Source: Pomacea canaliculata (Eukaryota > Mollusca > Gastropoda > Architaenioglossa > Ampullariidae). Taken from it: 64,000 bases of DNA. The stretch spans positions 13,508,074 to 13,572,073 of the forward strand of contig NC_037595.1 of the NCBI RefSeq assembly GCF_003073045.1. The letters are read 5' to 3'. Both the position numbers and the translations under genes were made by a program. Below, piece by piece: positions 6,541 to 55,804 of this stretch (positions within the stretch are counted from its first letter, which is position 1; each line of letters starts with the position of its first letter). Under the pieces are notes generated by a model that worked only from the letters and a program-made list of their open reading frames with translations, had not been told where the DNA came from and made no database searches.

Positions 6541-7915
6541 GCGCTGCCGTCGACGTGGGCTGCTTGCCATCCATCTTCACAACGCCGCCGCGCAACGGGA
6601 CGGTGGGCAGCAAGGGTCTGGGAGTGGTCAAGGTCCTTGATGACCACAGCTGGGTCTGGGGTGTGTTCGACTTTGGGCGTCCGACCATCTCCTTGTCGCA
6701 CGGCCACCGTGTCCCGGTACCCACGGTAAGCATTCAAAGGAGTCAAGGAGACGAGGTGCGTGGGAGGATGTGCGTTGCATAACAGAGGGGTGTGAGTGTG
6801 AGTATGTTTGTATGTGTGTGAGTTTATTTGTGTGTGTGTGTGTGCACGAGTGATTGTTTCTATTTTTTCCCTTTTTTTCCATTCCTGTTGGCTCATATTT
6901 TTCAAGATATGGAAAAGCAGAGTGGTTGGACAGTACGTGGGCGTGCGCGCGTGCAAAGTTCTCTGAAGTTTCTCGGGGAAGTTTCCGTTTCGGGCTCCGA
7001 GCGCGCGTGAATGAAGTGTCTTTGTTTTGATTATTAGGCTCGTCATGATAGAGATATGCAAGCTCTATATTCTCACATTCTGTGTCAGGCAGTGCGTGGG
7101 AGCAAGCTGGCGTCAGCAGAACAAGTGTACAGGAACACGTAAGTACTATCCTTGAAAACACACACACAGAGGGTCGGTGACGGGAAAATAGTTTTGGCGA
7201 GTTTTGTTAAAGAATGAAGACTATGTTGTTTTGTCTGCTGCTATTCTTAGCAAGCTTTTGTTTACCATCAAGCATGGCTGAAACCATTCATCTATCAACC
7301 CATCCATCCACAATCTTGCTTCATCGCTTGCTTCTGTCGGGGCGAGTGCTCGTTCTTATCGTGTTGTGGCGAGAAAAGTGTAAATGTCGTCCGTGGTCAA
7401 AAAATCCAACTTCCAGACGTCGAGTTATTTCAGCAGCCGGTAGGAAGCTTGAAAACTAACCACCCTGCCAACTCTCAAGAAAAAAGAATAAAGCTTGTGA
7501 GTGTGCACGTTCCTTCGTGTGTGTATGTGTGTGTGTGTGTGTGAGCGCGTGCGTGTTTGCATGAGTATAGAGTTTCTGAGGCAAGGGAATGCCAGTGAGT
7601 GCACGAGGTGGTTCATAAGTATAAACGTATTTTCCTCCAGTTTTTTAACGTCTTTGACACAAGATGTCCTTCGCTCGCTGGAACAAAAACGCGTTTTCAC
7701 GTAAAAACCACGTGAAGGCGGGGTTCCGGATTGCACGTGGCGAGACGTGGGAGTTCACGGAGAGTGCAGCTTCAGGCTTTTACTGTCGAACTCCTCTTAT
7801 CGTGCCAGCAGAGCAGAGTGCTAACGTTGGCCGTAAGTCCTCCGGCATCTGCTCTACGTGCTGCGGTTGGCTGGTGCAGAACAACACCTTTCCCTCCCGC
7901 AGCTTTTTGATGGAG
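6541..7915 (+). CDS. Candidate multi-exon gene, product not recognised
   Basis: I do not recognise the product; it is built from splice signals and codon bias. Proposed exons: 6541-6725 (after a pyrimidine-rich acceptor ending GCGTTAG; ends at ACG|gtaagc), 7089-7138 (after TTCTGTGTCAG; ends AACAC|gtaagt) and 7641-7700 (after TTTTCCTCCAG; ends TTCAC|gtaaaa). These three join in one open frame with phases 0 and 2. A further open stretch, 7664-7915, ends at GAG|gtacga and is rich in G/C third positions, but it overlaps exon 3 in another frame, so only its right part (for example from about 7822) could follow. Visible stretches include VVKVLDDHSWVWGVFDFGRP, EQVYRN, LTQDVLRSLEQKRVF and a cysteine cluster GICSTCCGW. 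No start or stop is assigned. The minus strand also has open frames here, so strand is a judgement. Confidence 0.3.
6790..6846. repeat. GT-rich microsatellite
   Basis: Interrupted (TG)n with TGTGAGTGTG and TATGTGTGTG blocks, lying in the proposed intron between 6725 and 7089. A similar GT tract is at about 7511-7560. Confidence 0.8.
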
Positions 7916-26966: not shown

Positions 26967-28817
26967 CAAGAGCCAAGCAAACAATCACACGGCCACTTTA
27001 CAACCACACCACAGCTCTTCCATGTTCAAGAACTAAAAGGAGAGGTCGAGAACAAATGACCTGACCTGAACATTGAAGTGAGCAGCAGATAAAATAATAA
27101 CTGCGGGGTCAAGCGGAGGAGAGATCTCAGAAGGAGGCGAGGGAGGAGTAAAGTGGAAGCACGGTAGCTCAGCGTGCATTGCAACCAGCGAATCTTGAAT
27201 TCGTTGAGAGAAGGAAGAGCAAACTAGACACTAATTGAAAGGCGCTGACGAAAAAGAAAAATATCTGCAAGCTATCTATCAACAGCGAACTAAAATACTG
27301 CGTGAGTGAGAGTTGTTTAGACACAGAGAAACTAAAAAAAAAAAAGGAAAACAACCTTAGTAACAACTGTGTAGAGACAATGAAAATAAAAGAATGTGTG
27401 ACATAGAAACGAAAAGACTGAATGGACGGTGTGTGTAGAGAGAAAGAAAGAAAAAAAAGAGACTATGGGAGGACAGGCGTGGAATGACAAGTACAGAATT
27501 AAACCATAGGAAGAAGGAAATATAGTCATAAAAATAACCATTTGTAGAACGAAATTCTTCGGATGTGTCAGCTATATGTTTACCTTCCCAAACCATTTTT
27601 TCGGAAACAGGAAAAGATTCGTTTTTAAACCCATTAAAATAAGTAATTTAAGCAATGGAAATAAAATCGTAAAATGACTCCAGCAAACACTTTGAACTAC
27701 AAGTCTGCTGTGATAACTGGAAGCGACTTCTAGAGCTTCGACAGCTAATTGCAGATGAAAAGCAGGCATCCGTAGCTTTGGTAGACGAAAACACATTTAT
27801 TCGAATGACTGAAAATGGAAAACAAATACGAAATATCAAGTTGACTAGCTTTGTGTTATGATATATAACATGTGTTAAATAGAATACAATAATGTAACAT
27901 CAGCTGATGGCAGAGGTGGCTGGCAAACAACGGGGTGGTGCCAGTCGACGACCATTTTCACAAGAGTTCCAGTCTTTCTGTTCTTGAGCGGGATAAAAAT
28001 TATGTGATGCCAATGACCATTCTTCATTAACATAAGCTTATTTTTAACCCTCTACTAACACGGACAATGTATGTTTCTTTGTTACAATTCTATAATAACA
28101 TGAGGTGACATAAGAAGAAGGTAGTTATTATTTACTAATATCTTAAAACATTTCTAGAGATGTTGAAAGGCTGTTATTCCTCATGCACGTGCGATGTGCT
28201 AGGTTTCTGTAAGTTATCACAGGTTTGATACAAGTTTCAGTCATTCTTGTCGGAAATATCCTGGAGATATTGAGAAAGTCTGTTCCACATGACTCTCATT
28301 AAGAATTATAAGTTGAACTTTAATAATTTCTTGGAATGGGTAGAGTGTTGACTGAGAGATGTTCGTTTTATGGAAAATATTGAGGCGGCAAATATATCTC
28401 AAGAACTGGGAGGGAGGAAGAGTATGTGAGAGGGAGAGAGAGAGAGAGAAATAAAGAAAGAGGATTAAACTCTTAAGAGTGCACTGCTTGACACGAAGAC
28501 GATTTCGAATTCTAATGAGATAAAACAGACAACAAAGTCGTTTTGTCTCTTTCATCTCGAAATGCTGAGTAAAGGGTAAGCCGTAGAACCAAGTGACATT
28601 CAGCAACAAGCCTCCTCGACTTTCTGTTAATAATACCGTTAGACGGAGCAGCAAATGCCATCAGGAGCATGAAGACTGCGGAAGTGTTGAAACTGATGGA
28701 TTTACTGCAGAATCTTAAAAGTTTGTGCACTCATTACGAAATGCAATTCTCGAGTGTGGAGAATAAAGTGGCAGGTGAGTCACAGATAGATGAGAACTCT
28801 TGTCCCTGTGTGTGCAG
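26967..28817. other. Unassigned DNA upstream of the insulin-related gene
   Basis: No coding gene is called. A tRNA-like GGTAGCTCAGCGTGCATTG near 27,166 may be a SINE remnant and a GA-rich tract lies near 28,430-28,450. Just before the insulin-related gene, 28,669-28,774 ends in GCAG|gtgagt and 28,817 ends an acceptor-like TGTGTGTGCAG. A 43-base intron would be unusually short, so the acceptor more likely joins a more distant 5' untranslated exon. Confidence 0.35.
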
Positions 28818-28850
28818 GTGCCTTGGGGTTTGCTGGGACTTGACTCCACT

Positions 28851-29820
28851 ATGGCGGTGTCGTGGCAGTGCTGGCCCCTGGTGGTGTTAGGGGTGGTGGC
28901 GCTGCACGCGTCCACGTGCTTGGGGACCTACGAACACACGTGCACGCTGTCCACGCGGTCACGAGGCGTCCATCCGCAAGGCATCTGCGGCAAGAACCTA
29001 CCCAAGATCCTCAGCGACATCTGCGGGCCCGGGGGGTACATGGGCCGGTGGTTAAGCAAGCGAGAGGCGCCCACAGATGCAAGTGAGTTATCTTCTCTTG
29101 ATGTAGTGGGGGCGGGTCAATCAAAGATGCCGTGGGCATAGCACACTTCTGTGAAGTTTAACAAAAGTCCGTTAAGTCTGAAGTGGTCCGAGAAAGGGTC
29201 AAACGGTGTTAGAAGTGTGATTTTACTAAAACATTACCTAGGGGCTAAATATTTCTGTGACTTTCCTTTCTGCTGAAAAGTTCAGGAGTGGGGATGTGGA
29301 GATCAAGCCTGAACAACTGAAAACGAGGCTGTGTAAATATATCAGGTGTTGTCCTATGTATGATTGCTCTTAACCTTCTCCTCACATCCACCCCAAAAGT
29401 CCATTTCTTTTATCTTTCGTTTTTTCAGTTTTTGTCTTCTGTGTCCTTCTTTCCTTTTCATTTTTAATTCCTTCTTTCTTTCCCTTCTTCTTTAACTTTC
29501 TTTTCGATTGTCTTAGCTTTTTTCTTGACATTTGACAACTATAAAAGTAAATTGTCATTGCTTAACTAATTTGAAGAAACAACCGCACTGTCACATACCT
29601 CATCATTGCATTCCTTTGTTCTCTTGTAGGTGTGGAGCTGAGGGAAGAGACAGAGTCCATTGCTAGTCGACTAAAAGATATCCTTTTAGGAAAAAGAGAA
29701 GCATTATCTTACCTGCACAAGCGGCAAGCCGGCTACGGTTCACAAGGAATCACATGTGAATGTTGCTACAATGCGTGTAATATTTACGAACTCCTGGAGT
29801 ACTGTCAGTACAACAAGTGA
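28851..29820 (+). CDS. Molluscan insulin-related peptide precursor
   Basis: This gene encodes a secreted prohormone of the insulin superfamily. Coding exons are 28,851-29,082 and 29,630-29,820, joined in phase 1 (GCA A|gtgagt ... TTGTAG|GT), the classical insulin C-peptide intron position and phase. The 140-residue product has a signal peptide (1 to about 25), a B chain (about 26-69) with Cys31, 45 and 58, KR at 70-71, a C peptide, GKR at 98-100, KR at 108-109, and an A chain (110-140) with Cys120, 122, 123, 127 and 136 in the pattern CxCCxxxCx8C. Eight cysteines rather than six, and the CECC motif, are typical of molluscan insulin-related peptides, known from Lymnaea cerebral cells where they control growth. 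The A chain starts with Gln, which could form pyroglutamate. An AATAAA follows at 30,010-30,015. Confidence 0.93.
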
Positions 29821-36264: not shown

Positions 36265-38505
36265 TTATGAAGGGCAAGCAAACCAGCTGTTTCCACATTT
36301 AGCTGATCCAACAGGCTCACAGATACCTGCATACAAAAATAACTTCATAAAAAAAGTACGAAAACATTTAACATTAAATTATTTAAAACATTACAGAGAA
36401 TAGCGTGCATTCTAGATGATTGATTGATCACAAAAGCTCATGGACATGAACCATTTAAATGTTTTGACATGCTCATAACCCCCAATCCCCTACCCACTGG
36501 AAGAAAGTTTGCGTTGTCTGATCCCAGCCACTCACACTAACAATGTCTGTACACTTCACATGTAGCATGCTGTGGAAAGTGTTTTAGTTTTTAAATGATT
36601 TAACAGTTAGAAAGAGCCTTTCTTTATACTTTACGTTTGATTCCACATCCCAATCGTTAGCGACCTTGCCATAGATATTTTAAGGAAGTTAATCTGTAGC
36701 CGACTTGAAAACGCTAGAAGAGGTAACCTGGCGGAGCGGAAGTGGGGAATGTGCGAAGGGAGAAGCGTATGCAAAGGTTTTCTGACCAGCAGAGTGCGGG
36801 GAGTGTGGAGTCGGAGATAACAGAGAGAGGAGGATGACTTCCAAAGACTAGATAATTATGGAATTGATGATATTTCTTGTCGTTTCTGACATCTGACGTG
36901 GTACTCAGTATCAGGAATACTGTCAGTTCTCCATACCTGGATGTCCTTTAGGACTGGCGAGGTTGACGGGGTTGGTGGCGTTCCACTGGCAGCTGCTGTC
37001 GCCCAGCTCCTCACCGTTGGACACACCGTCACCATCGGAGTCCTTCTGGCACAGGGCAGTCGTCCACGCATTACCGGCTGCAGCAAAATCCTGGCAGAGA
37101 ACAATAGCAACAATTACTAATCTGTAAACAACTATTACTCAGTTGCTAGCTGTCTTCCAACTGTAGCGGGACAGAACGAAATCCTGCGAGAAACATAAAA
37201 TGTCGGGAAAGTTCTATGTGGTAGGGATACAAACAATAGTAATAATGAAAGGAAAGCCATCAAGTCAGAAACTGTTCTTTTTTAGCTGAAGAGAACAGTG
37301 AAATGACTGGGTCTCATGCGTTTGTTTAATTCAGTATATTCTGACTTGCTACTTGGTCTCCTCCCTGTCTGGCAGTCAGTCTGACATTTTTATGCTAACG
37401 TCTTGATGCCTGTCTCGTGTGTTTCATCCTTTCATTCGTCGCTTACAAATATTTACACAAATAAATATAGAAAGTCGTTCCATACTTAATGATATAATGA
37501 ATTGATTAGATCATTGACTTATCAAAATGACAACACAGCATCAGTAAACTTGCTACAAACAAAATTGCTTTAAACAACTTAGATACAGATGTGTATAGCG
37601 AAAATGAAAACGTGTGTGCTTACACGGTCATTGGACAAGTCATTACGAAGACTAGATTAAATGCTAAAGAAGTTAATAAAAGGCAAAAAAAGCTAATGAT
37701 AAAACTTTATTACTCCGTTCCAATGCTTTATTACAGTAGTACTAGAAATGGGTTTGGGGGAAGAAATCACATAAAGCAAGACAGCATGAGAAATAAACCC
37801 ACAAGTCCGAAAGGGTTTCTTGGTCCACCGCCCTGGCTCGCTTGGTGACCAACACCAGGCCAAGGAGACTTGTCACACGGGTTGACCACGTTCTTACCAT
37901 TGGGAATACTATCCTGGAAGGTGGGGAAGGGCAGTGCCAAGGGTAGGAGACACACCAGCAAGATCGAGGCGAGCACCTGGTGACAAAACAAACTTTAAAT
38001 GTTTTCAGATCGCCTGTGGACACACATCACTCCACGCGAATATAAACTGTCATGGGTTACAACAAGCAATGAAAAGTTGGATGACTCAGAGCTTGACATA
38101 GAATGAATTGAACACATCGAACTTGCAGTCAGGCAAAGTACATAAAAACTTATTCCAGTTAAAAATAATGTTTAATGAAATAATGAAAGTCAGATGTAAA
38201 GTACTGTCACCAATGAATTCGTAAGTCATCATAAAGGTAAAAAGCAAAAGATGACAAACCGAGCACTTCAAAGAACTCTGTAACACGACAAAGTAAAAGC
38301 TCGGGTGGGATAAAGAAAACATCGATTTTTAAAAGCAAAAGCAAAGGTCAAGAAAAACAGAAAAGGAAGGTAAGAGCAGACACCGAAGATTACATATCAA
38401 CGCATCATGTGAAGAAAAGAAATGAGTAAAAGTCGTGACCTCTGACTTTCATAACACTGACATGTTGCTGACATGTAATCAACTACTTACAGTGAGGGAG
38501 GCCAT
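36265..38505 (-). CDS. Temptin-like secreted protein, copy A
   Basis: Temptin is a secreted attraction pheromone component of Aplysia; this protein has its layout. Exons in reading order: 38,491-38,505 (MASLT), 37,803-37,976, 36,937-37,090, 36,265-36,326, phases 0, 0, 1, all GT-AG. The 134-residue product has a signal peptide (about 1-21) split by intron 1, then FPTFQDSIPNG, NPC (Cys39), WPGVGH, GGGPRNPFG, DFAAAGNAWT, a calcium-loop-like DSDGDGVSNGEELGD (80-94), and HPGICEP. Cysteines are at 39, 77, 97, 117, 125 and 132, all kept in the four copies. N100-A-T is an N-glycosylation sequon. Short exon 1, whole-gene integrity and a good promoter argue for an active gene. A minus-strand AATAAA lies at 36,175-36,180. 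Identity to temptin is by recalled motifs, so the exact role in this animal is inferred. Confidence 0.88.
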
Positions 38506-39755: not shown

Positions 39756-42161
39756 TTATGCAGAGCAAGCAAACCAGCTGTTTCCACATTTACCTGATCC
39801 AACAGGCTCACAGATACCTGCAAACCAAAATAACTTCTTAAAAAATGTAGTTGTTCTTGTGTAACAACTGCCAAACCAGTTATTTATACTTTTATGCTTC
39901 ATTGTGGACTGAGTAAACTGCTGTTTATCTATCAAACATATTCATACGCAAGCCGACTTTAATTTATAAACATATTTACATGCACGCGAAAATATTTAAC
40001 ATTAAAATATTTAAAACGTTACAGAGAAAAGTGTGCAGTAAAGATGATTGCTTGATATCAGCCTTGATCGTAAAAGCTCATGGACATGAACCATTTAAAT
40101 GTTTTGATATGCTCCCAACCCCCAACCCCCTACCTTTAGCTATCTTGCCATAGATATTGGAAGTTAATCTGTAGCCACTTGAAAACACTAGAAGAGGTAA
40201 CCTGGCGGAGCGGAAGTGGGGAATGTGCGGCAGAGTGCGGGGAGTGTGGAGTCGGAGACAACAAAGAGAGTAGGATGACTTCCAAAGACTAGATAATTAT
40301 GGTGATATTTCTTGATATTTCAGACATCTGACGTGGTACTCAATATCAGGAATACTGTCAGTTCTCCATACCTGGATGTCCTTTAGGACTTGCGAGGTTG
40401 GCGCCGTTGGTGGCGTTCCACTGGCACCTGCTGTCGCCCAGCTCCTCGCCGTTGGACACACCGTCACCATCGGAGTCCTTCTGGCACAGGGCAGTCGTCC
40501 ACGCATTACCGGCTGCAGCAAAATCCTGGCAGAGAACAATAGCAACAATTACTAATTTGTAAATAACTATTACTCAGTTGCTAGCTGTCCTCCAACTGTA
40601 GCGGGACAGAACGAAATCCTGCGAGAAACATAAAATGTCGGGAAAGTTCTATGTGGCAGGCCTAGATGAAGATGCGTATAGATAAAATTAAAACGTGTGT
40701 GCTTACATGGTCATTGGACAACACATTGCTAAGACTAGATTGAATGCTAAAGAAGTTGATAAAAGGCGTAAAAAAACTAATGAGTAAACATTATTCCTCC
40801 ATTCTAATGCTTTATTAAAGTAGTACTAGAAATTGGTTAGGGGGAGAAAATACATGAAACAAGACAGCATAAGAAATGAACCCACAGCTCCAAAAGGGTT
40901 TAGTGGTCCACCGCCCTGGCTCGCTCGGTGACCAACACCAGGCCAAGCAGACTTGTCACACGGGTTGACCACATTCTTACCGTTGGGAATACCATTCTGG
41001 AAGGAGGGGAAGGGCAGTACCAAGGGTAGCAGACACACCACCAAGATCGAGGTGAGCACCTGGTGACAAAACAAACTTTAAATGTTTTCAGATCGCCTGT
41101 GGACACAAATCACTCCACGCCAATATAAACTGTCATGGGTTGCAACATGCAATGAAAATTTGCATGACTCAGAGCTTGACATAGAATGAAGTGAACACAT
41201 CGAACGTGTAGTCAGGCAAAGTACATAAAAACTTACACCACAGAACATACATCGCCCTTAAACCGTTTACAGAGATTTACGTTTGTGTGAGACAAACAGC
41301 AGAGGTCAATTCTGTGCCAGCTGGCAAATACATGTGAAGGGAGATGCTCGTGGGAAATATATGGCACATATAAGAGAACATTCGGTTTTCTTTCTGTATT
41401 TTTGTAATGATATTTTATTTATTTTTATTGACTGTCATGTTTGTCATACGACACAAAATAATTTGTTCAGAAAGAATGTTTTATTTATGGCAAGATCACA
41501 AAAAATTGCAAACAACAACTCTTTTCCTCAAAGCACTGCGAAGAGACGTTGATTAATTATTTCTGCTAAAGTACAAGAAAAGTCTGATGTACTTCTGAAT
41601 TTGGAGGTTCTTCAGTTTATGTTTTATGTATATCAGAATTTATGAACCCTTAAACTACAACTTGCTGAAAAACATGTTTGTTTCTATTGTTTGGCGCGTT
41701 TTTCTTTCATATTAAACATTTTTATCACTTTTGTTCTAGCAGGAGCTATAATAATAATAAGAAGAAGTTCATACCGAGCAATATTACAGTTAAAAATAAA
41801 GTGTAACCGTTATGTTAATGAGACAATGAAAGTCAGATTTAACGTACTGTCACCAATTAATTCGTAAGTCATCATTAAGTAAAAAGCAAAAGATGACAAG
41901 CCGAGCACTTCAAAGAACTCTGTAACACGACAAAGTAAACGCTCGGGTGGGATAAGAAACAAGTGATTTTCTAAAGTAAAAGCAAAGGTCAAGAAAAACA
42001 TTTAAACAGAATGAAGGTAAGAGCAGACTCAGACGATTTCACATCAACGCATCATGTGAAGAAAAGAAATGAGTAAAAGTCGTGACCTCTGACTTTCATA
42101 ACACTGACATGTTGCTGAAGGGATGAAAGTGTAATCAACTACTTACAGTGAGGGAGGCCAT
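39756..42161 (-). CDS. Temptin-like secreted protein, copy B
   Basis: Exons in reading order: 42,147-42,161 (MASLT), 40,886-41,059, 40,372-40,525, 39,756-39,817, with the same phases as copy A; product 134 residues. Signal peptide, IPNG, NPC, WPGVGH, DFAAAGNAWT, DSDGDGVSNGEELGD, the NAT sequon and all six mature cysteines are kept. Exon 3 differs from copy A at only about six bases of 154, the closest coding pair in the cluster. Intron 2 is short (360 bp) because it lacks a block present in A and C; intron 1 is long (1087 bp) because it has a block of about 550 bp missing in A. A minus-strand AATAAA lies at 39,666-39,671. No disabling change was seen. Confidence 0.88.
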
Positions 42162-42211
42162 TCTATGTCCGAAGTCTTCCTGGGAGAACGTCAGCAGCGT
42201 GCAGCACGTTA

Positions 42212-42256
42212 CGTTATATAGCATCGGGAGGGTCACCGTGGTCCTGTGACGTCAGA
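42212..42256 (-). promoter_or_regulatory. Promoter of temptin-like gene B: TATA plus CRE
   Basis: TATATAA at 42,214-42,220 and TGACGTCA at 42,247-42,254, with the same mutual spacing (26 bases) and the same distance to the ATG as in gene A. Confidence 0.75.
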
Positions 42257-42404
42257 GGTCGACAGTTTGCTTTGAATCACTTGGCCCGAGGGTTCATGTT
42301 GAAGTGGGCTGATGTACAAGTACAAAAAGTTTAAGTTCGGGACCGTAGTTTGACTGCTATCGCTTAGTCCTTTAGTAAAAACTGTGGTCAAGTGCTTCTC
42401 TTGC

Positions 42405-42807
42405 GCACACACTTACGCAAGCACACACAGATATCTGTTTATAATGTTTACTTTATCAAAGTATTATGTTTGTTAATCTCTTTCCGTCTACATGTTTATA
42501 TCTCTGTTTTTCTCACACATACCAGGAGGCAGAAATTCTCACAGTCCAAGATTTTTGTAGTCCACTATACTAAAAGATTTTGAAACGTTTTCATTATTTA
42601 CTGACAGTATTAAACTGTCACACGCTCCACGCAGCGGATACAATCACCATTTATTTAAACGTATTATAAACAAAAGGAGAATTAGTTTCCTTTCTAATAT
42701 TCGCTAAGAAACAGTGATGAGATTGAAGCGACTGTTTTTCTTTCTTCCCGCATTAGCTACCATTACGGAAAGGGAAGCTACTGTGTACATTAAAGGGATG
42801 TTACTCG
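42405..42807. repeat. 403-bp duplicate upstream of gene B (partner at 46,620)
   Basis: This block matches 46,620-47,022 with the same length and a single mismatch by my reading (CAATCACC here, CAATTACC there). The equivalent block upstream of gene A (about 38,740-39,070) is clearly more diverged. It lies about 250 bp beyond the ATG of gene B. Confidence 0.85.
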
Positions 42808-44133
42808 GACGTCGCCTGCAGCAGCCGCGTGCAGCAGGATGATGTTTGTTTGTCCTCGCGTTGTCCCTGGGGAAAGAAAGATGTCTAGGTTCAAGGTCCA
42901 TACAGAATGTCAGATGTCTTGTGTCAAATGTCAGCTCTCGGGATTGCTACTGTGACATCATCATGTCATGGAGGACCAGGGTTTATGTCTTTAGCTCATG
43001 TTGAGTGGGGAAACGTTCACGATGTTTCGGAATTAATGATGAATTAACACAATCTGGCCCCTTGTAAAAACCGTTTTTCTAGCTTCATGCTTCATAGTAT
43101 AGTCGAATCTTAGCCGCCGCAAATTCCTAGCCTTTTATTGAAAATCACTCGGACATGATTAAGGCAAAGAGGTATTTTACACAGTGGAAAGTTCGGGAAG
43201 AATTAATTAAGAGTATTGCCCACTCAGAAGGCACATACATGTATTCATTCTTTGCTGACTTAACATCAAGAGTAAACATGGTAATGCCCTTAGAAAAGTG
43301 TTGCTACCAGTTGTTATGTTACTGTAGCACACTGTCACACAACCGTCAGGTTTTAGAACATTCATCTTTCTATACCCGATGCTTGAGAGTTTTTGGTGTA
43401 AAAGAAGAATAAGAGCGGTGAAAATATTTTCGGGAATGACTGGGACACCCTTTCGTATGTTTCTAAAGTTTGGTGTGTTAGAAATTCGGTTCAGCTTGTG
43501 GGAAATATTTATTTTTACCTTTATTTATTTGCAGGTAAAGATGACTTATACATCAAGCACTGCTAATGCTCTATTGAGTAGGCTAACGGGGAGAGGGAGG
43601 AGGGCGCAAGTGTTCCAGCAATGTGTACTTTGAATAATAACAGTATTACAGTAATGTTGTTGACGTAGAAACAGACTCCGCCGCAACAAAAAAAAAAAAA
43701 GACAACAAATGTCGTTTCATCAGAAAAAAATATATAAAAAGAAAGAAGTCCTAACTATATACTTTTAAAACATCATTATCAGTAAGGTAAGAACAAAAAC
43801 AAAGTCTTTATAGAAATTCAAACACACACAAAGAAGAAACATGGAGCTCAGATGATATTGTTGCCAACATGTGCTAGCCACTAATCTCATTCTGTGCTTC
43901 TTTCATTCAAATAGTAACTCGACTATTGGCTGATTCTTTTTTTTTTTTTCTTTAATGAATAAATTATGAGGTACCGGCAAATTTTCGAAGGGTTTGAAAT
44001 GTTTTATGTGGTTCGTAGCAAGTTTTTACAACCTGGTAACCACAGACAGATTATTTGTGACAAGTGTTCACTTTCATCCAGATTATCTTTCTGAGCTGCC
44101 CATGCTGGCCCTTCGTCCCAAGACTTGACACGG

Positions 44134-46376
44134 TCAAGACTTTGGAGGGCAACTAAACCAACTGTCTTGACATCTATCTGATCCAACAGGCTCACAGATA
44201 CCTGCAAACAAAAATAACTTATTTAAAAAGAGCAATACGTTCTTGTGTAACAACTGCCAAACCAGTTATTTATACCATTTATAGTTCAATGTGGACTGAG
44301 TAAACTGCCCTTTATCTCACACATATTCACAAGCAAGCCAACATTTTTATAAACATATTTGCAAGCACGAGAGCGAGCGCGCGCGCGCACACACACATCC
44401 ACGAAAATATTCACTTAAAACATTACAGAGAAAACTGAGCATTCTAGATGATTGATGTCAGCCTTGATCACAAAAGCTCATGGACATGAACCATTGATAT
44501 GTTTTGACATGCTCCCAACCCCCAACCCCCAACCCCCAATTATGGAATTGATGATATTTCTGACATCTGACGGGGTACTCAATATCCCGAATCCTGTAAG
44601 TTCTCCGTACCTGGATGTCCTTTGGGTCTGGAGAGGGGGATGGGGTTGGTGGCGTTCCACTGGCACATGCTGTCGCCCAGCTCCACGCCGTTGGACTGAC
44701 CGTCACCATCGGAGTCCTTATAGCACAGTTCAGTCGTCCACACATAACCGGCTGCAGCAAAATCCTGGGACAGAACAATACCAACAATTACTAATCTGTA
44801 AATAACTATTACTCAGTTGCTAGCTGTCCTCCAGCTGTTGCGGGATAGAACGAAATCCTGAGAGAAACATAAAATGTCGGGAAAGTTCTATGTGGCAGAG
44901 ATACAAACAATAGTAATCATGAATGGAAAACCATTAAGTCAGAAACTGTTCTTTTTTAGCGGAAGAGAACAGTGAAATGACTGGGTCTCATGCGTTTGTT
45001 TAATTCAGTACAGTATGTGTTGACTTATCCACTTTGTCTCCTCTCTGTCTGGCAGTCAGTCTGACATTTTTCTGCTAACGTCTTCCTGGTTGATGCCTGT
45101 CTCGCGTGTTTCTTCCTTTTTTTCGTCGCTTAAAAAGATTTATATAAATAAATATAGAAAGTCATTCCATACTTAATGACAGAATGAATTGATTAGACCA
45201 TTGACTTATCAAAATGACAACACAGCATCAGTAAACTGGAATAAACCTTGCTACAAAAAAAAATTGAGCATGAGAAATAAACTCACAAGTCCGAAAGGGT
45301 TTCTTTGTCCGCCGCCCTGGCTCACTTTGTGACCAACACCAGGCCAAGCAGACTTGTCACATGGGTTGAGCACATTCCTACCGTTGGGAATTCTATTCTG
45401 GAAGTAGGGGAAGGGCTCTGCCAAGGGTAGCAGACACACCAGCAAGATCGAGGTGAGCACCTGGTGACAAAACAAACTTTAAATGTTTTCAGATGGCTTG
45501 TGGACACAAATCACTCCACGCGAATATAAACTGTCATGGGTTACAACATGCAAAAAAAATTTGGATGACTCAGAGCTTGACAGAATGAATTGAACATATC
45601 GAACGTGTAGTCAGGCAAAGTACATAAAAACTTACACCACAAAACATACATCGCCCTTAAAACCGTTTACAGTGATTTACTCTTGTGTGAGACAAACATC
45701 AGAGATCAATTCTGTTCCAGCTGGCAAATACTTGTGAAGTTAGATGCTCGTGGGCAATATATGGCACATATAAGAGAACATTCGGTTTTCTTTCTGCATT
45801 TTTCAAAAATGATATTTCGTTTATTTTTACATATTGTCATGTCTGTCATACGGCATGAAATAAGTTGTTTGAAAAAAAGAAACATTTTATTTGTGTCGAG
45901 ATCCAAAAAATTTGCAAACAACAGCTCTTTTCCTCAATAATGTCCTCAAATAATTTCTGTCTTCCCACATGAAAAGGAAAACATTGAAGACATTTACTGA
46001 GCCTTTGATAAAAGTGTTAGCATCGTCTCATGTGATGGACAATGCTTGCAGGAAGTGTGGTTAAAAACCAAATACAATTCTAGTCTCAACAATAACAATA
46101 GCAACACCGAAGATTTCTGTAGCATATTTCTCTACCGTACAGTAGCTTTACGGACATTGTCTGAGGTACACAAAGAGCCTAATGTATATCTGAATTTGGT
46201 GATTCGTCAGTTAATATTTTATGTAAGGAAGGTAAGAGCAGACACCGACGATTTCACATCAACCCATCATGTGAAGAAAAGAAATGAGTAAAAGTCGTGA
46301 CCTCTGACTTTCATAACACTGACATGTTGCTGAAGGGAGAAAAGTGTAATTAACTACTTACAGTGATGGAGGCCAT
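44134..46376 (-). CDS. Temptin-like secreted protein, copy C
   Basis: Exons in reading order: 46,362-46,376 (MASIT), 45,287-45,460, 44,611-44,764, 44,134-44,201; phases 0, 0, 1; product 136 residues. The six mature cysteines and IPNG, NPC, WPGVGH, GGGQRNPFG and DFAAAG are kept; the loop reads DSDGDGQSNGVELGD. The C terminus is two residues longer (ending CPPKS) because the stop used by A and B is changed and the frame closes at the next TGA. Compared with B, nearly all codon differences in exons 2 and 3 change the amino acid. The AATAAA used by A and B is AATAAT here. Confidence 0.87.
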
Positions 46377-46470: not shown

Positions 46471-46619
46471 GGTCGACAGCTTGCTCTGAATCACTTGGTC
46501 CGAGGATTGATGTTGAGGTGGGCTGATGTATATGTACAAATATTTTTAACTCAGGACCGTAGTTTGGCTGCTGTCGCTTAGTCCTTTAATAAAAAACTGT
46601 GGTCATGTACTTCTCTTAC

Positions 46620-47022
46620 GCACACACTTACGCAAGCACACACAGATATCTGTTTATAATGTTTACTTTATCAAAGTATTATGTTTGTTAATCTCTTTCC
46701 GTCTACATGTTTATATCTCTGTTTTTCTCACACATACCAGGAGGCAGAAATTCTCACAGTCCAAGATTTTTGTAGTCCACTATACTAAAAGATTTTGAAA
46801 CGTTTTCATTATTTACTGACAGTATTAAACTGTCACACGCTCCACGCAGCGGATACAATTACCATTTATTTAAACGTATTATAAACAAAAGGAGAATTAG
46901 TTTCCTTTCTAATATTCGCTAAGAAACAGTGATGAGATTGAAGCGACTGTTTTTCTTTCTTCCCGCATTAGCTACCATTACGGAAAGGGAAGCTACTGTG
47001 TACATTAAAGGGATGTTACTCG
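46620..47022. repeat. 403-bp duplicate upstream of gene C (partner at 42,405)
   Basis: Near-identical partner of the block upstream of gene B. Similarity continues less perfectly to about 47,340 (for example CAGCAGCCGCGTGCAGCAGG versus CAGCAGCAGCGTGCACCAGG). Confidence 0.85.
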
Positions 47023-47344
47023 AACGTCGCCTGCAGCAGCAGCGTGCACCAGGAGGATGCTTGTCCTGGCGTTGTCCCTGATGAAAGAAAGATGTCTAGG
47101 TTCAAGGTCCCATACAGAATGTCAGATGTCAGAATGTCAGATGTCTTGTGTCAAATGTCAGCTGTCGGGATCGCTGCTGTGACATCATGATGTCATGGCA
47201 GTCCAGGATTTATGTCTTTACCTCATGTTGAGTGGGGAAACGTTCGCGATGCTTCGGATATAATGATGAAGTAACATAATCTGGCGCCTTGTAAAAACCA
47301 TTTTTCTAGCTTCATAGTATAGTCGAATCTCTCTTTCTCTCTCT

Positions 47345-50374: not shown

Positions 50375-53300
50375 CTAAGGGCAAGCAATCCAGCTGTTTC
50401 CACATTTACTTGATCCAACAGGCTCACAGATACCTGCAAGCAAATGGGTTGTGTAACATCGTGAACAAATTAAGTGTGGATAATGAACCTGTACTTAGTG
50501 TTATAATCGATACGTAGTGTAATTTTCAAAAAGTGTTGTATTATATTATACTTAACAAATAATTGGTTTTGACTTATGGGGTACGCTGTACTTTCTTTAT
50601 TTATCACAGACGTAAAAATCCATGCTTATATACACACATGGGCACACTAGTACGCGTACATACTTGTTAGTACATAGAAGCATACATGTACACATACACA
50701 CATAGATGCATGTAAGTACCTAGATAAATATATAAATAGATATGCATACATACACGCACAACTAGACTTTGATTGATTGCATTCTAAATATTTAACATAG
50801 CATACTTAGACACTTTCCTCAGATGGGGAACAGACTATGAGCTTATGACAGATGTTGAGATAAGTATTACAGCGTGGTTAGAGAATATAACAGGTTTTGA
50901 AAGGAATTCCACGAGTTGTTTGAATAATGAAACATTCGCGTTGGAGATTAACAGAAGTCATGCAATCTTGAATAATTATTCAGGATCTAGTTTATCCTCG
51001 AAAACATTTCTATTGTCAGTACCTGTTTATGCACAGAATAAAAAGGAATTTACATATCAGCAAAAAAACATGGATGACAGTTATCCATAACATGTTAGTG
51101 ACACATCTCATGCCATGTCTTTGATACAAGGTACACCAAAATCTAAGATTAGTCAAAGTACCAAACAGGCCCAACAGCTAGCTTCCCATACCCGGATGTC
51201 CCTTGGGACTGGCGAGGTTGATTGGGTTAGAGATGCTCCACCTACAGAAGACGTCGCCCAGTTCCTCGCCGTTGGACACGCCATCATTGTCAGAATCCTT
51301 CCGACACAACTCAGGAGTCCACATATTTCCAGCAGCGGCAAAATCCTGGAAGAGAAAAGACAGTAACAATTACAAACTTTTTTTGGCTGCTAATGCATGC
51401 ATTCTAGTTTATGACAATCACTTTAGAGAAACATGTCAGACTTGATATTTTTTGATAATTTAAATTTTTATGCAACTTTGATTGAAGGAGGAGGTGAGGT
51501 TTGCGCACTTGAAGCAAGTTCGGGAGTGACTGGCCTCATGTTTTGCTCTGCACTTTCTACATTTCCACGATGTTTTGATGACTCTGCGTGTGCAGGACAA
51601 TATTTAAGAGCATCTGCTAAATCTTTCAACTGGTGACAGTATTCTATAAAAGATATATGCTTTACAGTGGCACCAAATGATTATAAATGCTTGCTTCGTT
51701 GCTGATTTGTTAAACAGAAATTTGTTAGACAGAGTACTTATCTACAGGACGGGAGAAAGAAACCTGTTGTCTCGAGACCATGTCCTGCTCGGAGCGGTCA
51801 GTGAGAAAGTTACGTGGTCCTTTTTTTAAAACTACTTCATTGAAGTGTACATCTCAGGTAACTGCATTAGGTTTGTGTATGAACGATGACAGGTTCAAAA
51901 TTTTTGAAGTATTTCAACTTCGGAGATTTAGTGTCGACATTCTGGTTCTTGGATGTTAACGTTTGTAGCTAACGAAGAAATTCCCTGCGTTTTAGTTTTC
52001 AAAACGGACATGGAGAAAATTATAAGGTTATATATTGATATTCAATATATATTTAATGATATGTATCTGTGTGTGTTTTGTTTTCATGTGAAAAATCTGT
52101 AGAAGGCTGATGAGTATGTACTGCTATGATATTTGGAGATAAACCAAACAGGTCTTGTCGTATTCCTCTGAATTTGTTGAGCGTAAGCTTTAATTTCTGA
52201 GATGTTATAAAAAACGGTATGCAACCCATTCGGAAATCTGAGAATTATTAAAAGAAAGCAACTCTATACAAGGTGTTATATGGTATGGAAACGTGCGGCT
52301 AAAATGTTACTGAAAATATTCAATCAAGCAAATCAAATATCGTAACATAAGAACACACATCAGATTAATATTCACGAATTCTTCTTTCAACCCTTACACG
52401 TCGATGGCGAAAGCAATAAAAAGAGAGACAGATGGGGTAAAAAAAAGTAGGGGGTAGAGAAAAATAGACACGTGAAAGACTGATGCAGGACAACAAATGC
52501 ACCTACAACTCCGAAACGGTTTTTTCTTCCGCCGCCCTGGATCGCTCGGTGACCAACCCCAGGCCAAGGCATTTGGTTACAGGGGTTACGTACATTCCTG
52601 CCGTTAGGAATACTGTCCTGAAAGGAGGAGTAGGATTCTGCCAAAGGTAGCAACGCTACCGCCAAGATAGAGGTGAACACCTGGAGACAAAACAAATGTG
52701 GACAAAACAAATGTCAGACAAAACAAATTTCGGTGTCAGAAAGCTTGCTGAAATTTCACAAAAAAACCCAAAAAAACGCCACATAGAGCATTTCACAGCA
52801 GGCAGCAAGACAGCGGGCAATAAAATGTGTCACGTGATGCTCAATACCGCGTGCAATAAAAACAGAGGATGGGATACATAATAGCAATGAAACAGAATTT
52901 GTCACGCAGTCATGAAACGGCATCCTTTAGAAGACCATCCTTACAGAACAGTCAGCTAACTGTCAAAACAGTGCGAAAGCATAAATAATTTTTAAAGGGA
53001 GATAAAGCTATAAAGTGAAAAAAGCTGGTAAAGGAAGCAAACCAATGTCAGGGAGGTAACCCCGACAGCTGAGTGGCCTCCGCGAAAATTTGTCTTACAG
53101 AACTTGCACATATAGATAGAGATTGTTATTTTGTTCAAGCAAAGGATGAAATCGTTGCAATATGAAATAAAAAGACAAGAAAAATAAATGTTTATGTTGT
53201 AAGATCATACAAAGTGTAAAAGCATGCAGCTTTAACAAGTACTTCTGAGTAGATTAACATGGCTTTGATAAATAGTAACAGTTCTAATGAATATATTGAG

Positions 53301-53812
53301 ATAAAAAAATAATACAGCAATTCATTCACTTACTGAGCCTTGAGAAAATGCGAGTATCCACTTGTTTTCAATGAAATGTTTGCAGTAAATAATGCATTTA
53401 GCTGTTGTTGCAATAAAGCTGTCAAGTATTACAGATGTCTTTAGTCAAAGTGTGTGCAATAAGACAAATTTGAAAGAGCGAGGTGTGAGAGAAATATTCA
53501 TCAAAGTCAAACAACCCAAGTGATCAACGAGGACTTTATAGGTACTTGGCACAGAAAGACTTAGAAAATAACAAAACAAACACTTAAAAGAACAAGGAAG
53601 GAAGACATTAAAAGAAGATTACCAATAAATGTAGAACAGACAAGATGCCCTGAGGAGGTGCAGAAAGCAAAGAAACGAACATTTTTGTTAAAAAGACAAG
53701 GTGAAGTTCGTGATGCAAATTTATACCTGGTTTTCTTAGGACTGTCAGGTGTAACTTAAGTGAGAAAAACATAAATAAGTTTAAAACAATTGCTTACAGT
53801 TACAGATGTCAT
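50375..53812 (-). CDS. Temptin-like secreted protein, copy D (most diverged)
   Basis: Exons in reading order: 53,798-53,812 (MTSVT), 52,507-52,680, 51,192-51,345, 50,375-50,433; same phases; product 133 residues. It keeps the signal peptide, IPNG, NPC, WPGVGH, DFAAAG, DSDNDGVSNGEELGD, HPGICEP and six cysteines. It lacks the NAT sequon of A-C (WSISN instead of WNATN), has NRFG for NPFG, and stops one codon earlier than A and B. Introns are larger (1117, 1161 and 758 bp) and share little with the other copies, so D split off first. A minus-strand AATAAA lies at 50,166-50,171. Confidence 0.87.
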
Positions 53813-55187: not shown

Positions 55188-55270
55188 TACAAAGAATTTG
55201 TACAGATTACAAAGAATTTGTACAGATTACAAAGAATTTGTACAGATTACAAAGAATTTGTACAGATTAC
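55188..55270. repeat. 20-bp perfect tandem repeat, about four copies
   Basis: Unit TACAGATTACAAAGAATTTG repeats exactly with a 20-bp period. Each unit boundary makes the inverted repeat TACAAA-GAA-TTTGTA. The repeat begins inside the LINE-like coding stretch (LYKFFV on the minus strand), so it grew there by slippage or unequal exchange. Confidence 0.9.
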
Positions 55271-55723: not shown

Positions 55724-55754
<31 letters not shown>

Positions 55755-55762
55755 GCTGCTGC

Positions 55763-55804
<42 letters not shown>
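55724..55804. repeat. GTT/TTG microsatellite
   Basis: About 27 GTT units with a GCTGCTGCT interruption in the middle. Val or Thr runs in frames here are artefacts. Confidence 0.95.

Follow-up and report, generated by a model that had tools for sequence, protein, structure and literature searches.

The window analysed here is a stretch of 64,000 nucleotides of the Pomacea canaliculata genome (contig NC_037595.1, positions 13,508,074 to 13,572,073, referred to as contig C6 among the 24 contigs, 440 Mb in total, that were scanned). Four temptin-like genes were modelled in it, all on the minus strand and with four exons each: copies A (36265-38505), B (39756-42161), C (44134-46376) and D (50375-53812). 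The subject is the amino-acid divergence among these tandem copies, in particular that of copy C. The original prediction, made from the letters of the interval 40372-45460 (the end of B exon 3 through the start of C exon 2), had proposed diversifying selection on the secreted protein.

All four copies have splice sites that follow the consensus and encode 133-136 residues in an open frame, and none has a broken frame, a damaged splice site or a loss of core residues that would mark a pseudogene. When spliced, copies B, C and D score 123, 121.5 and 117.9 bits against the Temptin_C profile (Pfam PF24784), for which the curated cut-off is 27. For copy A, exons 2 and 3 each exceed this cut-off in a genome-wide profile search of unspliced sequence. 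The first ~21 residues of the translation form a hydrophobic stretch, which is presumed to be a signal peptide. The mature part has six cysteines in all four copies, and the calcium-type loop reads DSDGDG in A to C and DSDNDG in D. The motifs IPNG, GVGH and DSDGDG and the six mature cysteines are invariant across A, B and C; this had been stated for B and C. A search of solved structures returned no relative of copy B up to E=1, and one scan of viral contigs returned no relative of copy C. A tblastn search of the window with the four proteins revealed no fifth copy, the sole other match being at 6567-6599 (E=0.95).

Changes unique to one copy were assigned to its lineage from triple alignments of A, B and C. 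At codon positions 1 and 2, copy C carries such changes at 27 of 264 sites, compared with 66 of 1370 in noncoding DNA (2.1-fold, P=0.0012), 64 of 1064 when a near-identical tract of 422 base pairs (bp) upstream of B and C is left out (1.7-fold, P=0.020) and 27 of 521 in introns (2.0-fold, P=0.011). Position 3 of copy C changes at the noncoding rate (8 of 132, ratios 1.0-1.3). A raised mutation rate is thus disfavoured, because position 3 would rise too. Copy A looks constrained, with only 4 of 264 at positions 1 and 2 (0.3-0.4 times noncoding, P 0.009-0.12), and copy B lies between the two (11 of 264, 1.6-2.0 times noncoding, P 0.08-0.15). Where D and two of the copies share a residue, the remaining copy differs at 11 of 91 positions if it is C, at 2 of 82 if it is B and at 1 of 81 if it is A.

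The strongest single evidence is a test on copy C at preselected sites. Site classes were set from D and eight other in-frame temptins of the genome, leaving out A, B and C, and 44 positions of the domain were classified as conserved and 51 as variable. Events were counted once per codon, however many bases had changed. At the 51 family-variable sites, copy C has 14 events in 102 positions, against 58 in 1370 in noncoding DNA (3.2-fold, P=0.00025; 2.6-fold, P=0.0019 without the 422-bp tract), and this excess is stable over four thresholds (2.4-3.7-fold, P 0.0002-0.004). The conserved sites of C show 2 events in 88 positions, which differs from its variable sites (P=0.007); the corresponding comparison in B is 5 of 102 with 1 of 88 (P=0.22). 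Copy A has 2 events in its 102 variable positions. Amino-acid change at preselected sites is therefore faster than in local noncoding DNA for C, and borderline for B when doublets are counted once; counted by base, B (8 of 102) is above noncoding (P 0.003-0.008). We give this test its weight because the sites were picked without regard to A, B and C, and under relaxed constraint change at such sites is not expected to outpace local noncoding DNA. Support for selection appears to lie mainly on copy C, with A constrained and B borderline.

The codon models were run with a likelihood program written for this analysis, whose one-ratio likelihoods are within 0.1 of those of iqtree2 (-1114.36 and -1114.29; for A, B and C only, -821.93 and -821.87). 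With D as the outgroup, the ratio of nonsynonymous to synonymous substitution rates (dN/dS) is 1.70 in the A-B-C crown and 0.27 on the D branch (P=1.2e-5 compared with a single ratio). No choice of tree is needed for site models on A, B and C alone. Here, model M2a exceeds M1a with twice the log-likelihood difference (2dlnL) at 20.2, placing 33% of the codons at dN/dS 6.3 and the remainder near 0; for exons 2 and 3 alone, P=0.0008. Plain branch-site tests are concordant with the site models, with 2dlnL at 22.2 (crown) and 19.9 (C). Taking these plain tests at face value was rejected, since under a null model that includes tandem doublets (see below) the 95% point of the plain site test is inflated to 13.9. 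A class of codons with dN/dS above 1 is nevertheless robust to multinucleotide change: about a third of the codons are placed at dN/dS 4.6-6.3, with and without tandem doublets in the model.

A second temptin cluster of the genome, on contig C8, serves as a control. At least nine further temptins were found, six in tandem on contig C8, two on C4 and one on C11, so that the genome holds at least 13 in all. Genome-wide, 26 exons match the Temptin_C profile, eight of them from the window. These other temptins share the domain of the window cluster, and the DSDxD loop is present in the eight in-frame copies. The fifth C8 copy (L047, C8 19811567-19811680) has a broken frame in exon 3, which suggests a pseudogene or an error of the assembly; it was excluded from the site classes and from the pairs. 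The five C8 copies with an intact frame form 10 pairs, all with dN/dS 0.09-0.36 over 95 codons (the mature part of exon 2 and exon 3), including the close pairs b-c (0.09 at dS 0.26) and d-f (0.34 at dS 0.18). Unlike the window cluster, the C8 cluster is under ordinary purifying selection, and the temptins of this genome therefore do not, as a rule, change fast. The two groups also differ in gene structure: in the window cluster, intron 2 is placed ~8 codons farther upstream than in the temptins of contigs C8, C4 and C11 (L044-L052), and it seems to have been moved or replaced in one temptin group.

Table 1. Exons of the four temptin-like copies and the near-identical upstream tracts, in window coordinates.
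Feature	Position	Strand	Remark
Copy A exon 1	38491..38505	-	start of presumed signal peptide
Copy A exon 2	37803..37976	-	
Copy A exon 3	36937..37090	-	DSDGDG loop
Copy A exon 4	36265..36326	-	A is the constrained copy
Copy B exon 1	42147..42161	-	
Copy B exon 2	40886..41059	-	
Copy B exon 3	40372..40525	-	
Copy B exon 4	39756..39817	-	
Copy C exon 1	46362..46376	-	
Copy C exon 2	45287..45460	-	
Copy C exon 3	44611..44764	-	amino acid differs from B in 12/51 codons
Copy C exon 4	44134..44201	-	exceeds A and B by two codons; C is the accelerated copy
Copy D exon 1	53798..53812	-	
Copy D exon 2	52507..52680	-	
Copy D exon 3	51192..51345	-	
Copy D exon 4	50375..50433	-	D is the outgroup copy
B 5' flank tract	42404..42825	.	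420/422 aligned bases as in C 46619-47040
C 5' flank tract	46619..47040	.	partner of B 42404-42825

The exon coordinates are listed in Table 1. Upstream (5') of the D gene are two short tandem arrays, at 55189-55268 (a 20-base unit repeated four times) and at 55724-55804 (interrupted GTT runs). Elsewhere in the window, the plus strand carries an insulin-like gene, with a B-chain-like frame at 28794-29141 and, downstream at ~29755, an A-chain-like cysteine pattern in a frame that reads GITCECCYNACNIYELLEYC. From their cysteine pattern, we take these frames to belong to the insulin family; the B-chain-like frame alone had no match in Pfam and solved-structure searches. A Pfam scan of seven other frames of the window gave no family above cut-off.

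Several results weigh against positive selection, beginning with the pairwise comparison of B and C from which the original prediction had started. Its counts for exons 2 and 3 were reproduced exactly by a recount (24 of 109 codons with an amino-acid change and 4 of 109 with silent changes only), and its random expectation of about three to one agrees with 246.5 nonsynonymous to 80.5 synonymous sites. The excess is, however, within chance as a signal of its own: with 33 nonsynonymous and 7 synonymous differences, the pairwise dN/dS of 1.60 is not significantly above 1 (one-sided Fisher P=0.18), nor is the value of 1.69 over all 132 shared codons (P=0.12). Flanking noncoding DNA had been described as far more similar than the exons, which does not hold except for the 422-bp tract. 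Mismatches between B and C amount to 264 of 2844 in noncoding DNA (9.3%), 112 of 1129 in introns (9.9%) and 40 of 328 in exons 2 and 3 (12.2%), where the noncoding rates are those of alignable blocks only and may understate the true divergence. The nonsynonymous rate (33 of 246) is 1.45 times that of all noncoding DNA (one-sided P=0.027), 1.24 times when the tract is left out (P=0.13) and 1.35 times that of introns (P=0.069), which is suggestive but not firm. Diversifying selection is supported by the lineage and site-class tests, mainly for copy C, but neither by the B-C ratio nor as a contrast of B with C. The whole-gene ratio of the crown is likewise not significantly above 1 (P=0.12; for exons 2 and 3, P=0.30 or 0.19 under two frequency models), and it falls to 1.13 when doublets are modelled (P=0.75 against 1; exons 2 and 3, 0.98). 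The data consist of only three close copies, 132 codons and one genome, the codon models do not include variation of the synonymous rate, and many tests were made with uncorrected P values and a focus on the C branch that was picked after seeing the data. A signalling role, moreover, is attributed to the window temptins by family membership only.

A mutational artefact, in which tandem-doublet mutations inflate the number of amino-acid changes, would be one way to account for these results. Multinucleotide mutation is documented to produce false selection signals in such tests (PMC10336034). Adjacent mismatches are indeed in excess in noncoding DNA between B and C (45 observed against 31.8 expected, P=0.006; A-B, 15 against 9.7; A-C, 18 against 14.6), and of the 11 pairs of neighbouring mismatches that separate B from C in the coding sequence, 10 fall on codon positions 1-2. 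Tandem doublets also carry much of the naive signal, as 2dlnL of the site test is reduced by more than half, from 20.2 to 8.66, when they are modelled. Yet none of the 11 coding pairs straddles two codons and a single one lies at positions 2-3, while mutation alone has no reading frame. The tests remain significant with doublets modelled, both for M2a (P=0.013) and for the branch-site test (P=0.0028 for the crown and 0.0011 for C by itself), and the excess on copy C is still there when each doublet is counted once. In null simulations that included doublets, the value of 8.66 was reached in 2 of 400 and the plain-test value of 20.2 in none of 400. Noncoding triplets of the cluster were also assembled into 250 sets of pseudo-codons, none of which reached either M2a statistic; these are an easier control because they contain no constrained sites. 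We consider such an artefact quite improbable. Still more remote is the proposal that gene conversion produced a false ratio, either by homogenising silent sites or by importing diverged pieces. Conversion is apparently active at the locus. The 422-bp tract begins 243 bp before the start codons of both B and C and has 2 mismatches; the unbroken matches of 241 and 162 bases within it were equalled in none of 2000 shuffles. Copy A differs from both by ~10-14% in two 150-column windows covering most of this stretch; therefore, shared constraint alone is insufficient, and recent gene conversion is the probable explanation of the tract. In exon 4, D differs from A at only 3 and from B at only 2 of 54 bases, although exons 2 and 3 show 39-46 differences in 153-174 bases; this near-identity may reflect either conversion or strong local constraint. 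Homogenised silent sites had been named as a result that would overturn the original prediction, but silent sites between B and C (7 of 80) are as diverged as introns (112 of 1129; P=0.85), so that silent changes were not selectively erased. Conversion is also unable to spare amino-acid sites alone, and a constrained donor would bring mostly silent changes. On exons 2 and 3 only, with exon 4 removed and doublets modelled, the signals persist in weaker form (M2a, P=0.038; branch-site, P=0.011 for the crown and 0.0023 for C), and the C-branch results persist without the tract. GC-biased conversion was rejected as a candidate: the C-branch changes comprise 7 AT-to-GC and 17 GC-to-AT, which is the wrong direction.

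A third explanation, relaxed constraint, is that C (and B) became dispensable after duplication and drifted neutrally, with dN/dS near 1 or by chance slightly above. The whole-gene ratios given above would fit this. Copy C has altered glutamate 90, which is invariant in nine other temptins, and this could mean that constraint was loosened. The deficit of C at conserved sites, measured against noncoding DNA, lacks significance (P 0.31-0.58) and is gone at two looser thresholds (0.7-1.1 times noncoding). In copy B, the 5 events in 102 variable positions, with doublets counted once, correspond to 2.2-2.5 times noncoding (P 0.07-0.10; 0.04-0.15 over four thresholds). Drift does not, however, account for a C branch that is above the noncoding rate at positions 1 and 2 (P 0.001-0.02) and that reaches 2.6-3.2 times this rate at family-variable sites (P 0.0002-0.002). 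Conserved sites of C change less than its variable ones, an unevenness that fits selection rather than free drift, and the frame, the splice sites and the cysteines of C are intact. We therefore regard relaxed constraint as unlikely, though it deserves more weight than the mutational artefact or conversion.

We favour, with a probability of roughly 0.64, adaptive divergence of a tandem secreted temptin duplicate: positive selection would have acted at family-variable positions of copy C, and possibly also, less strongly, of B, while A is constrained. Under this proposal, A, B and C would have arisen from one parent by recent duplication, D being older, and copy A would keep the ancestral protein under constraint. 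Positive selection would drive C, and perhaps B to a lesser degree, at positions where the family tolerates variation, while the disulphide frame, like the calcium-type loop, was retained during divergence. The variable positions may form a surface that is read by partners or receptors. The duplicates might in this way come to act as chemical signals of distinct specificity, borne by water or by egg masses, in the manner of the temptins of Aplysia and Biomphalaria, but a role in the shell or egg matrix would be compatible with the sequence equally well. On a more speculative level, the cluster might be a nascent lineage-specific repertoire of chemical signals, in which one copy is held constant, selection pushes its neighbours towards new surface identities, conversion keeps the upstream DNA alike and the second temptin cluster keeps the conserved duty. 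We advance this wider picture only tentatively, as it may well not hold. If it were true, temptin would be a diversifying protein of mating or species recognition in snails, beyond its part as the conserved 'glue' of the pheromone complex. Confirmation of adaptive divergence in copy C would make particular residues of a protein of the pheromone family candidates for signal specificity, with the C8 cluster and the constrained copy A as built-in controls.

Duplicated secreted proteins of reproduction are well known to diverge adaptively. Salamander pheromones and abalone lysin are duplicated, fast-evolving proteins on a fixed cysteine frame. Compared with these, the signal in the window is weaker and concentrated in one copy, and the reproductive role is putative. 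In the portions of the open-licence literature covered, temptin occurred together with positive selection only in a paper on an oomycete secretome; subscription papers were outside the scope. Passages of PMC10075465, PMC11940790 and PMC9210306 report that temptins attract conspecifics in Aplysia and Biomphalaria, that they have a shell role in other molluscs and that the zebra mussel has mantle-specific temptin-like genes. For Biomphalaria pfeifferi, 12 partial temptin-like genes and one with a signal peptide are listed (PMC10075465, in part), a multigene temptin family in a snail, as found here with at least 13 genes. The Biomphalaria passages present a tree, report no selection test and state no notable temptin difference between two species that differ in mating habits (PMC10075465). 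Among highly expressed genes of P. canaliculata, a temptin transcript, which is not assigned to a copy, has the second-highest value of reads per kilobase per million mapped reads among the rows shown in the excerpt (PMC4328836). The closest known system is the temptin of Aplysia (PF24784), which is described as a protein pheromone that belongs to the attractin complex and is carried in water. It shares with the window copies the domain, the cysteine frame, the DSDxD calcium-type loop and a secreted-type N-terminus. The window differs from it in holding four tandem copies, including one that is diverging, and a pheromone activity of the Pomacea proteins would be putative.

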